Shown here: positions 56,510 to 58,555 of the stretch, one piece after another
Layout of the letters: the number at the start of each line of letters is the position of its first letter
Numbering within the stretch: position 1 is the stretch's first letter
Assembly: GCF_034424215.1 (NCBI RefSeq)
Contig: NZ_CP139960.1
Span: 3,472,001-3,536,000 of the forward strand
Length of the DNA: 64,000 nt
Direction: 5' to 3'
From: Niabella yanshanensis
GTDB taxonomy: Bacteria > Bacteroidota > Bacteroidia > Chitinophagales > Chitinophagaceae
Notes under the pieces: model-generated
The model's database searches: none
Seen by the model: only the letters and a program-made list of their open reading frames with translations
Told to the model about the DNA's origin: nothing
Made by a program: the position numbers and the translations under genes

Positions 56510-57502
56510 TTATATCAGGTTGTTAGCTACCAGGTACTCAGCTACCTGAACGGCATTAGTAGCCGCACCCTTACGCAGGTTGTCACTCACGATCCACATA
56601 TTTAATGTTTTAGGCTGTGTTTCATCGCGGCGGATGCGGCCTACAAAAACCTCGTCTTTTTCATGTGCGTCCTTTGGCATCGGGTATTGCTGGTTGGGCA
56701 GGTCGTCTACTACTACTACACCAGGAGCTGATTCTAACAGGTTTCTTACTTCTGCCAGTTCAAATTCATTTTCAAATTCAACATTCACGCTTTCGCTATG
56801 ACCCCCCATTACAGGTATCCGAACAGTAGTCGCTGTCACTTTAATATTATCGTCGCGCATGATCTTTTTGGTTTCATTCACCATTTTCATTTCTTCTTTG
56901 GTATACCCATTGTCGGTGAACACATCAATTTGCGGAATAACATTTAAATCGATAGGGTATTTATAAGCCATCGGATATTCGCTGGCATTGTTTCTTTCAC
57001 CCATCAGTTGATCTACCGCTTTAACACCGGTACCCGTTACGCTCTGGTAGGTGGAAACTACCACGCGTTTAATTTTGTACGCTTTGTGTAAAGGCTGCAG
57101 TGCAACGACCATCTGGATCGTAGAGCAGTTGGGGTTGGCGATAATTTTGTCATTGGTGGTCAGGATATCTGCATTGATCTCAGGTACGATCAATGGTTTA
57201 GACGGATCCATTCTCCAGGCAGATGAGTTATCAACCACGGTAATACCCGCAGCAGCAAATTGGGGCGCCCATTCTGTAGAAGTACCTCCACCGGCAGAAA
57301 ATAATGCCACAGCAGGTTTTGCTGCGATACCGTCCGCCATGCTCACTATTTTATATTTTTTTCCTTTAAACTCTACTTCTTTACCTACGCTTCTTTCAGA
57401 CGCTACCGGAACGAGTTCCGTAACCGGAAAGTTTCTTTCGGCCAATACCTGCAACATTTTGGTGCCCACAAGGCCGGTGGCGCCCACTACTGCAACTTTC
57501 AT
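56510..57502 (-). CDS. asd: Aspartate-semialdehyde dehydrogenase
   Basis: 330-aa NADPH-dependent enzyme reducing aspartyl phosphate, the branch-point step to Lys/diaminopimelate, Thr, Met and Ile. VAVVGATGLVGTKML binds NADP at the N-terminus. NPNCSTIQMV has the catalytic Cys126, and RIPVMGGHSESV carries the conserved His (about residue 233). Length is normal. The 140-bp leader contains a promoter, a 13-codon Thr/Ile/Lys-rich ORF and an intrinsic terminator 25 bp before the ATG, so the gene is likely under transcription attenuation by aminoacyl-tRNA supply. Confidence 0.96.
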   Translation of the reverse strand: MKVAVVGATGLVGTKMLQVLAERNFPVTELVPVASERSVGKEVEFKGKKYKIVSMADGIAAKPAVALFSAGGGTSTEWAPQFAAAGITVVDNSSAWRMDPSKPLIVPEINADILTTNDKIIANPNCSTIQMVVALQPLHKAYKIKRVVVSTYQSVTGTGVKAVDQLMGERNNASEYPMAYKYPIDLNVIPQIDVFTDNGYTKEEMKMVNETKKIMRDDNIKVTATTVRIPVMGGHSESVNVEFENEFELAEVRNLLESAPGVVVVDDLPNQQYPMPKDAHEKDEVFVGRIRRDETQPKTLNMWIVSDNLRKGAATNAVQVAEYLVANNLI

Positions 57503-57527
57503 TTTTTTATTTTTTGGTTTTAGATAT

Positions 57528-57556
57528 AAAAAAAGCCTTCCGTATTTACGGAAGGC
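57528..57556 (-). terminator. Attenuator terminator in the asd leader
   Basis: On the minus strand GCCTTCCGTA pairs with TACGGAAGGC (2-nt loop if fully closed; opening the last pairs gives 8 bp with a 6-nt loop), followed by seven T (plus-strand A run 57528-57534). It ends 25 bp before asd. Its 5' arm can instead pair with 57593-57602. Confidence 0.85.
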
Positions 57557-57592
57557 CTGTTAAAAAATTTATGTTACACACACAAAAACTAC

Positions 57593-57602
57593 AACCTTCC
57601 AT
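57593..57602 (-). promoter_or_regulatory. Antiterminator strand in the asd leader
   Basis: Minus-strand RNA AUGGAAGGUU, beginning at the last base of the leader-peptide stop codon, can pair with GGCCUUCCGU at 57557-57548 (10 bp including three G-U). That disrupts the terminator hairpin. A ribosome at the stop codon would cover this strand; one stalled earlier would leave it free. Confidence 0.65.
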
Positions 57603-57643
57603 TACGGATGTTTCTTAATCTTTGTATGTTTCTTTATTGTCAT
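57602..57643 (-). CDS. asd leader peptide rich in Thr, Ile and Lys
   Basis: Thirteen codons encode MTIKKHTKIKKHP, then TAA. Two Thr, two Ile and five Lys make up nine of the 12 residues after Met; these are three end products of the aspartate pathway that passes through Asd. The ATG is only 7 bp after the -7 element, so the mRNA would be leaderless or nearly so. The ORF ends exactly where the antiterminator begins. The arrangement matches leader peptides of amino-acid attenuators (thr, trp, his in other bacteria). Peptide itself probably has no function. Confidence 0.75.
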   Translation of the reverse strand: MTIKKHTKIKKHP

Positions 57644-57650
57644 TGGGTTG

Positions 57651-57682
57651 CAAAGGTAGATCGATGACTGAAATCAACAAAA
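57651..57682 (-). promoter_or_regulatory. Promoter for the asd leader transcript
   Basis: On the minus strand TTTTG (57682-57678), a 19-bp spacer and TACCTTTG (57658-57651) followed by CA: the best -33/-7 match in the window. Confidence 0.75.
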
Positions 57683-57749
57683 TATTTTTTAAAAACCTCG
57701 TTTCTTTAACGTTGATTTAGCGAATGCTTTTAATACCAGGTTATTAAAT

Positions 57750-57762
57750 ACAGGTAACCTGT
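57750..57762. repeat. Short perfect palindrome
   Basis: ACAGGT-A-ACCTGT, about 145 bp before the antitoxin gene and upstream of the asd promoter. Possible protein-binding site; no other support. Confidence 0.25.
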
Positions 57763-57869
57763 TACAACAGGCATATAATTACGGTGGAGATTAAAGAATG
57801 CAACGATTGGGAATCGGGAATAAAACCGGGTTATATTATCTCCCCAGGCTAATGACTGACGAAGTGGGT

Positions 57870-57896
57870 ATGCGCATAAAATTTAAAAATGCGCAT
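57870..57896. promoter_or_regulatory. Twin palindromes before the antitoxin gene (candidate operator)
   Basis: ATGCGCAT occurs at 57870-57877 and 57889-57896, each a perfect 8-bp palindrome, 19 bp apart centre to centre, separated by AAAATTTAAAA. The second ends 9 bp before the GTG start and touches CATCTTTG, a near match to a -7 element. Ribbon-helix-helix antitoxins commonly autoregulate through such repeated palindromes. Confidence 0.55.
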
Positions 57897-57905
57897 CTTT
57901 GATGT

Positions 57906-58136
57906 GTGAAAACACGCTTAAACATCACGATTGAGGAAGGCATTCTGGAAGAAATAAAGAAGTATTCCAACCGGAACAATATTTCGATCTCTGAACTAGT
58001 AGAAAAATATTTTAAGAGAATTGTCGATAAGCCTAAAAAGAAAAGTCTTTTGGATAAAATCAAGACTTTACCAGAGCCTTCTATTTCACTTGATATCGAG
58101 TACAAAAAGGGATACTACGAAGAAAAATACAAGTAA
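57906..58136 (+). CDS. Ribbon-helix-helix antitoxin (DUF6364-like)
   Basis: 76-aa protein starting at GTG. The N-terminus KTRLNITIEEGILEEIKKYSNRNNISISELVEKYFK has the ribbon-helix-helix pattern: a short basic beta strand, then two helices with SISELVEKY as the second. The C-terminal half (about residues 45-76) is the presumed toxin-neutralising extension. The stop overlaps the ATG of the PIN-domain gene (TAATG), standard toxin-antitoxin coupling. The frame is intact although its toxin is broken. Confidence 0.8.
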   Translation: MKTRLNITIEEGILEEIKKYSNRNNISISELVEKYFKRIVDKPKKKSLLDKIKTLPEPSISLDIEYKKGYYEEKYK

Positions 58137-58555
58137 TGGCCAGCAAAGTTTTTCTGGACGCTAACGTGATACTTGACCTGCTTCTGAAAAGAAATAATCA
58201 TAATGATTGCGAAGCAATTTTTAAAATGGTTCTTGATTAGAAAATTACAGGATATATAACCCCTTCTGTTTTCCAGGTCGTTGCACACTGGCTTATTAAA
58301 GCATACGGGGCGAAAGTTGCTAAAGAACTACTTCCGGATATTCTGGAAGAGCTGGAGATTATTGAGGTGATACGGCCGATACTGATAAAGGCGCTTAAAA
58401 TGTCTTACGATGATTTGGAGGACAATATTCAATATTGTACAGTACAGTATCATCATTTAGACTATTTTGTTACAAGCGATTTGGGAATGTTCAACCATAA
58501 ATGGGAAGGAATAGCCGTTATTTCTCCCCGTAAGCTACTTGAAACATTGGCTTAA
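58136..58555 (+). pseudogene. PIN-domain toxin interrupted by an in-frame TAG
   Basis: A 139-codon PIN-like ribonuclease frame begins MASKVFLDANVILDLLLKR, where FLDANV gives the first catalytic Asp. It runs to codon 35, which is TAG (58238-58240), and then continues in the same frame with KITGYITPSVF, ELEIIEVIRPILIKAL and HHLDYFVTSDLGMF (PIN C-terminal Asp motif) to a TAA at 58553. One base change (for example CAG, AAG or TGG) would restore it. So the toxin is probably inactive, unless the stop is suppressed or the sequence is wrong. Confidence 0.85.

Follow-up and report, generated by a model that had tools for sequence, protein, structure and literature searches.

Comparative analysis of the DNA upstream of asd, the gene for aspartate-semialdehyde dehydrogenase, makes it very probable that in Niabella yanshanensis this gene is preceded by a ribosome-mediated leader-peptide transcription attenuator, which would sense charged tRNA-Lys and perhaps also tRNA-Thr. 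The gene lies in a window of 64,000 nucleotides (the whole stretch of DNA analysed here) belonging to a 5.54-Mb genome in a single contig. The evidence comes from the conservation of a short lysine-rich reading frame, from the covariation of three alternative RNA stems, and from elements of like layout in front of other amino-acid genes.

The asd locus of Niabella yanshanensis

The asd product scored 439 bits against TIGR01296 (cut-off 324) and 461 bits against NF011456 (cut-off 223), and its nearest named relative in our search was the Asd of Niabella ginsengisoli, with 93% identity. By eye, a terminator-like inverted repeat follows the 3' end of asd, so that the gene looks monocistronic. Directly downstream of it lies a gene for a Uma2-type putative endonuclease (PF05685; 55771-56370, minus strand). 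On the other side, a DUF6364/ribbon-helix-helix antitoxin-like gene (57906-58555, plus strand) is divergent from asd. Beyond that gene, a PIN-toxin-like reading frame is broken by a stop (by eye), and Pfam returned nothing for the last piece of this frame. Since the frame is interrupted, the toxin-antitoxin pair has probably decayed.

Upstream of asd on the minus strand, TTTG, a spacer of 19 nt, TACCTTTG and 7 further nt lead to an ATG at 57643 (Table 1). The terminator stem has 11 pairs, six of them GC, and the run of seven T behind it ends at 57528, which is 25 nt before the asd start at 57502. A terminator scan of 57300-57900 on both strands returned two sites where 0.5 were expected. Folding of the asd leader yields -36 kcal/mol, whereas 200 dinucleotide shuffles of it average -19.7 (sd 3.0), so that z is -5.4. 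These parts agree with the initial annotation, which had described a -33/-7 promoter with a 19-nt spacer, a near-leaderless ORF of 13 codons, nine T, I or K among the 12 residues after Met, a stop codon abutting a strand complementary to the 5' arm of the terminator, and a terminator with seven T at 25 nt from asd. The promoter, ORF and strand are present in the sequence, the residue count is correct, and the terminator was recovered by the scan. We found in addition a conserved stem, absent from that annotation, in which the ORF bases 57629-57616 form a 14-bp helix with 57591-57578 (strands 1a and 2), enclosing the antiterminator strand.

Table 1. Features of the asd leader region, in positions of the window.
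Feature	Position	Strand	Basis or remark
asd, aspartate-semialdehyde dehydrogenase, proposed regulated gene	56510-57502	-	NCBIfam TIGR01296 and NF011456
-33 promoter element TTTG	57678-57681	-	Sequence; kept in selected leaders
-7 promoter element TACCTTTG	57651-57658	-	Fits TAnnTTTG, the Bacteroidetes primary sigma factor consensus
Predicted transcription start (+1)	57646	-	3 nt before leader ATG; from box position in Flavobacterium psychrophilum
Leader ORF MTIKKHTKIKKHP plus TAA, 13 codons	57602-57643	-	Frame, Lys codons and stop position conserved; Lys codons proposed as sensor
Strand 1a, inside leader ORF	57616-57629	-	Pairs with strand 2
Strand A TGGAAGGTT, antiterminator 5' strand, abutting stop codon	57593-57601	-	Complementary to strand 3
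Strand 2	57578-57591	-	Pairs with strand 1a
Intrinsic terminator hairpin	57533-57558	-	Terminator scan; 3:4 covariation
Strand 3, arm of terminator	57548-57558	-
Strand 4, arm of terminator	57533-57543	-

The leader ORF is conserved as a coding sequence

We picked 108 leaders by eye from 223 upstream stretches, a terminator and a plausible ORF being the criteria, so the presence of an ORF and its uniform frame are partly selected in this set. The set includes near-duplicates between the named and unnamed collections and holds 103 distinct peptides. Three tests are less affected by the selection. The first ATG after the -7 box was in frame with the peptide core in 95 of 97 selected leaders. At the four core Lys positions of the 108 leaders, 366 codons were AAA or AAG and 6 were AAT or AAC. 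The mean entropy of the eight core codons was 0.55, 0.88 and 1.27 bits at codon positions 1, 2 and 3, respectively. As judged from these patterns, the leader ORF is under coding constraint.

The residue most consistently kept is lysine. Lys occurred at core positions 0, 3, 6 and 7 in 85, 100, 96 and 85 of the 108 leaders, and made up 26% of leader residues compared with 14% in shuffled nucleotides; every one of the 103 distinct selected peptides contained three to six. Thr occupied core position 2 in 88 of the 108 leaders and position 5 in 56 of them, and accounted for 13.3% of residues (9.1% shuffled), with six of the 103 distinct peptides lacking it. Ile reached at most 19 of the 108 leaders at any one core position, and 25 of the 103 distinct peptides lack it altogether, which rules it out as a conserved sensor. 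Therefore, among the three amino acids whose sensing the initial annotation had proposed, Lys stands, with at least three residues in all 103 distinct peptides, and Thr is common, while Ile is incidental.

Promoter and predicted near-leaderless start

In 92 of the 108 selected leaders the ATG follows a TAnnTTYG box by 5-10 nt. There are 96 leaders whose -7 box is within 14 nt of the ATG, and 84 of these also carry TTTG or TTTC at a distance of 19-20 nt upstream of the box. By comparison, none of 40 large ORFs in the window had such a box at 5-10 nt; two had one at 4 nt, and 17 had one anywhere within 150 nt. TAnnTTTG is given as the -7 consensus of the Bacteroidetes primary sigma factor in passages of PMC7366714 and PMC9723704, the latter placing the box at -12 to -5 in F. 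psychrophilum. From this position, the 5' untranslated region of the leaders is predicted to be about 1-6 nt long, and 3 nt in the window. Passages of these two papers put the share of 5' UTRs shorter than 10 nt at about 3.7% in Bacteroides thetaiotaomicron (PMC7366714), and that of leaderless mRNAs at 5.5% in F. psychrophilum (PMC9723704). A leaderless leader peptide had been regarded as an oddity when the element was first noted. That view needs correcting, as the near-leaderless start is common to the relatives and a leaderless attenuator, trpL of Sinorhizobium meliloti, is known.

Three alternative stems covary

To quantify the pairing, we compared the pairing energy of strands from the same species (matched) with that of strands from different species (mismatched) across the 108 sequences. 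The energies were -12.3 matched versus -8.9 mismatched for 1a:2 (z -16), -12.6 versus -11.5 for A:3 (z -9.4) and -16.2 versus -13.8 for 3:4 (z -16). The control pairs 1:3 and 2:3 showed nothing in this test (z -1.3 and +1.0); the strand permutations, and both controls likewise, ignore the relatedness of the sequences. Without Niabella the three z values were still -15.1, -7.4 and -15.7. Strand A also covaried weakly with the end of the ORF (1b:A, z -3.1). Since the terminator (3:4) and the antiterminator (A:3) share strand 3 and both covary, they are mutually exclusive.

In the model-fitted alignment A2, 91.4% of cells were paired compared with 78.5% after shuffling and 34-59% after sliding, both sides changed at 17 of 19 pairs, and the terminator helix covaried; this alignment leans towards the covariance model, and one of its rows (L023) is a spurious match on the opposite strand. 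In the MAFFT alignment A1 the values were 88.3% against 83.2% shuffled and 31-61% slid, with both-side changes at 14 of 19 pairs. RNAalifold on the MAFFT seed alignment found the terminator as the sole structure, a limitation that comes from the varying segment lengths among leaders, and it was replaced by the matched/mismatched strand tests and the covariance model. Thus relatives keep an in-frame short ORF, an amino-acid bias and a covarying antiterminator and terminator. The alignment of relatives by which the attenuator proposal was to be judged was favourable in ORF, residue bias and stems alike, and on this comparative ground the interpretation is supported.

Few parts of the element are as well conserved as a further stretch, AACATAAA at 57575-57568 (minus strand), in the gap that separates strand 2 from strand 3; the ATA within it is invariant or nearly so in alignment A1, relatives included. 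This stretch has no role in the attenuation model and is possibly a pause or protein site.

Proposed mechanism and masking model

Sequence and comparison show the promoter motif with its spacing, the coding constraint on the ORF, the three covarying stems and their geometry. We infer where transcription starts, that the leader is translated, that ribosomes stall, which amino acid the cell senses and in which direction regulation runs, as follows. RNA polymerase would start at the primary-sigma promoter and transcribe the leader AUG almost immediately, so that the leader would be translated from a leaderless or near-leaderless start. With plentiful Lys, the ribosome would get to the stop codon and cover strand A; strands 3 and 4 would then pair and transcription would stop before asd. 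With Lys in short supply, the ribosome would stall at the Lys codons, breaking hairpin 1a:2 and leaving strand A free to pair with strand 3, and asd would be transcribed.

We utilized a masking model to follow this geometry. For each leader, the transcript up to the terminator loop was folded with a mask reaching up to 10 nt past the A-site codon; the model consists of geometry and folding and has no kinetics, and the 10-nt downstream footprint is assumed from general knowledge. When the mask extended as far as 10 nt beyond the last Lys codon, A:3 formed in 107 of 108 leaders. With masking from the stop codon it formed in 0 of 108, a result that largely follows from the position of the stop. 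The antiterminator was obtained in 99-100% of the 108 leaders with core codons 0-7 in the A site, and in 82%, 39% and 5% (of 103) with positions 8, 9 and 10. This series suggests that position 7, the last conserved Lys codon, is the last stall that frees strand A in nearly every leader. In the model without a ribosome, the transcript up to the terminator loop favoured A:3 in 81 of 108 leaders, including that of the window (L001), so default termination must rest on the order of folding or is leaky. When the window leader is folded at full length, both 1a:2 and the terminator form, and termination without translation would depend on 1a:2 forming first.

Distribution among relatives

A covariance model, with rough E-values, was built from 47 leaders. 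It matched the region before asd in every Niabella genome searched (17 of 17) and in 96 of 130 asd upstream stretches of Chitinophagaceae. The family sample comprised 147 genomes, 144 of them with asd, from which 130 upstream stretches were taken and 14 left out. Model seeds account for 38 of the 130, and among the non-seeds 58 of 92 matched. By batch, there were 93 matches among 100 stretches at E<=0.001 and three among the other 30 at E<=0.01, these three below 2e-9. Three of the 96 matches are uncertain, with scores below 45 bits (L131, L189 and L195). Of the 34 upstream stretches of the family without a model match, 27 come from the group of 28 loci with the more divergent Asd (L199-L226), and seven are others. 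In the N. yanshanensis genome, the second and third matches of the model (E 0.003 and 0.026) read as plain terminators, and 23 weaker ones rank below them. Twelve stretches taken from an order-level search comprised eight without a plausible leader, three leaders in other families and one asd element of the same family. Judged by these comparisons, the occurrence of the element upstream of asd is not due to chance.

Elements of like layout at other amino-acid genes

The asd model also found second sites in other genomes, and the counts given here are those among the matches listed. Twenty second-site stretches comprised seven at dapA, six at hisG, two at an aminotransferase gene, one at an aspartate kinase gene, one at lysA, one at an acyl-CoA-thioesterase-like ORF (named by eye) and two without leader or gene. 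A further 19 stretches from the family added seven at hisG, one His leader before another ORF, one at an aspartate kinase gene and one at an aminotransferase gene, and in the remaining nine there was no plausible leader. NCBIfam cut-offs were passed by DapA, aspartate kinase, LysA and HisG, with one example of each examined. The one aminotransferase tested matched many families and passed no cut-off among the 25 families listed. The other gene copies were named by eye from likeness.

Elements of like layout carry Lys codons before dapA, lysC, lysA and the aminotransferase gene, and His codons before hisG. Seven hisG leaders contained 31% His and 7% Lys, compared with 26% Lys and 6% His in the asd leaders. 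The dapA leaders had three to five Lys in seven of seven cases and no Thr in two of the seven. At the hisG of N. yanshanensis itself (L373, G000:C1, upstream of 5420687), a His-codon leader MTLSNIHIHHHFTNLQQ begins 7 nt after TATATTTG in a like layout, and a scan found a near-leaderless His-codon attenuator at 12 of 15 Niabella hisG loci. Elsewhere in the order, outside the family, a lysA-like gene was preceded by a Lys leader MMIYKHKSSKRFLPKW, an ilvD-like gene (L425) by an Ile leader MKNMIQIIVIISIIILMNG and a Met-pathway-like gene (L429) by a Met/Cys leader MKKTMNCQMCMMYIQDV, all three genes named by eye. The Ile and Met/Cys leaders suggest a broader repertoire of attenuators within the order. 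Overall, the leader codons tend to follow the product of the downstream gene, as attenuation predicts.

The targets differ between genomes. Only a minority of dapA genes carry the element, which was present at 5 of the 30 DapA loci closest to the query, and the dapA of N. yanshanensis shows no attenuator. In Niabella, the scan found a leader at 0 of 15 lysA and 0 of 29 aspartate kinase upstream regions, a few of which have misplaced starts. Separately, at 13 of the 15 Niabella lysA loci (L315-L329) the start codon is preceded at 14-19 nt by a hairpin that resembles a terminator, in most cases GCAGTA..TACTGC; it may be the end of the upstream gene or another control. Lys-rich leaders at aspartate kinase (lysC), lysA or aminotransferase genes occurred in six genomes (G111, G113, G134, G063, G106 and G144; loci L273, L279, L281, L284, L389 and L390), and none of the five asd upstream regions covered among these genomes had a model match (L211, L215, L214, L220 and L217). 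It looks, from their sequences, as if the element had changed target between lysine-pathway genes.

Alternative explanations

What the leader senses allows another version of the attenuator reading, which we regard as the less probable one: joint sensing of Thr and Lys, or sensing chiefly of Thr. Joint sensing would be fitting for asd, as the gene contributes to the synthesis of Lys, Thr, Met and Ile, and a Thr/Lys cluster is known from the SEP5 sORF of Sinorhizobium in the part of PMC10117765 that deals with it. The Thr frequencies given above point the same way, and the conservation of Thr at core position 2 makes Lys-only sensing less certain. The conserved ACA codon, however, sits in strand 1a, so RNA pairing may be what keeps it. 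Against a need for Thr, the six distinct asd peptides without Thr all have at least three Lys, and Thr is missing from the two dapA leaders mentioned, with Lys present in all seven. The preference for Lys over Lys plus Thr sensing draws on codon conservation and on the dapA leaders.

Readings that dispense with the sensing of charged tRNA are far less probable. It is very unlikely that the element is a metabolite-binding riboswitch or a protein-bound RNA whose ORF is fortuitous. RNA-level conservation is indeed good in strand 1a and in AACATAA, the stretch that separates strand 2 from strand 3, but the restriction of the Lys codons to AAR variation, the in-frame start and the His codons in elements of like layout before hisG argue against it. 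Rfam gave no match in the window at the gathering threshold or in six loci at E<=1. This covers the lysine riboswitch (RF00168), for which there was no covariance match, and the T-box leader, both rejected on this ground, as well as the families Thr_leader and His_leader. Since the His-codon leader L373 is also without a His_leader match, the absence of matches to these two leader families says little. Arrest by the nascent peptide, in which a basic KHTKRTKK peptide stalls in the exit tunnel irrespective of charged tRNA, is highly improbable. Many leaders do share a recognisable core, but core position 4 and the C-terminal part vary, and the His, Ile and Met/Cys leaders have the layout in common and differ in peptide. 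Moreover, peptides of 13-20 residues are short for exit-tunnel arrest. We give practically no weight to a plain terminator with a chance ORF, for instance the terminator of an upstream unit: the 34 of 130 relatives without a match and the weak matches elsewhere that are plain terminators could be cited for it, but three covarying alternative stems, a promoter and a reading frame speak against it. A chance terminator is ruled out by the matched/mismatched strand covariation.

Comparison with known systems

Ribosome-mediated attenuators are known for the trp, his, thr, leu, ilv and phe leaders of Proteobacteria. Like these, the asd element has a short ORF with codons for pathway products, mutually exclusive antiterminator and terminator, and a stop codon at which the antiterminator strand is masked. 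It differs from them in its proposed Lys sensor codons and its predicted near-leaderless ORF, in a protective stem 1a:2 that encloses the antiterminator strand and does not share it, and in lying before a single asd, in the phylum Bacteroidota, without matching an Rfam leader family. Ribosome-mediated attenuation of amino-acid operons is outlined in passages of PMC2659441 and PMC12925634. The same passages describe the lysine riboswitch (L box, RF00168) as Lys-responsive control of lysine-pathway genes such as lysC. The riboswitch is like the asd element in the latter's proposed role, as a Lys-responsive control of the lysine pathway; unlike the asd element, it binds its ligand directly and has no ORF.

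The nearest precedent is SEP5 of S. meliloti. According to passages of PMC10117765, this sORF carries six codons for Thr and three for Lys towards its 3' end. By the same account it is part of the 5' UTR of what the authors name an aspartate dehydrogenase gene, is a suggested leader peptide, and is conserved solely in Sinorhizobium. Unlike the asd leader, SEP5 is alphaproteobacterial and Thr-dominated, with no terminator or antiterminator described in those passages. The trpL (rnTrpL) of S. meliloti is there given as a leaderless attenuator ORF starting with the transcript; its start is like that predicted for the asd leader, whereas it senses Trp and belongs to another phylum. For F. psychrophilum, of the same phylum as our element, parts of PMC9723704 report strong clues for leader-peptide attenuation upstream of amino-acid biosynthesis operons, and a word search of its main text found no mention of asd, lysine or threonine. 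Among the literature matches listed, which are openly licensed texts, there was no lysine leader-peptide attenuator and no attenuator of this kind in Chitinophagaceae. The mechanism is a known one; apparently new are the sensor amino acid, the host group, the near-leaderless start common to relatives and the enclosing protective stem.

Implications for lysine biosynthesis in Chitinophagaceae

RNA control of lysine genes is best known from the lysine riboswitch. From the distribution described here, we consider it probable that near-leaderless lysine-codon attenuators govern how lysine is made in Chitinophagaceae and in certain further families of its order. One type of element would stand before asd in most of the family genomes covered, before dapA in some, and before lysC, lysA or the aminotransferase gene in several genomes without the asd element, in a layout also found in His, Ile and Met/Cys leaders. 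If this is true, the family has a regulon of lysine-sensing peptide attenuation where other bacteria use the lysine riboswitch. A codon-reading lysine attenuator that occurs throughout a bacterial family, on different pathway genes in different genomes, would also provide a ready set for studying how attenuators originate and change targets. Given the near-leaderless start, the sensor would have to be read by ribosomes initiating on an almost bare 5' AUG, in a group for which a passage of PMC9723704 reports, from flavobacteria, that Shine-Dalgarno sequences are lacking.
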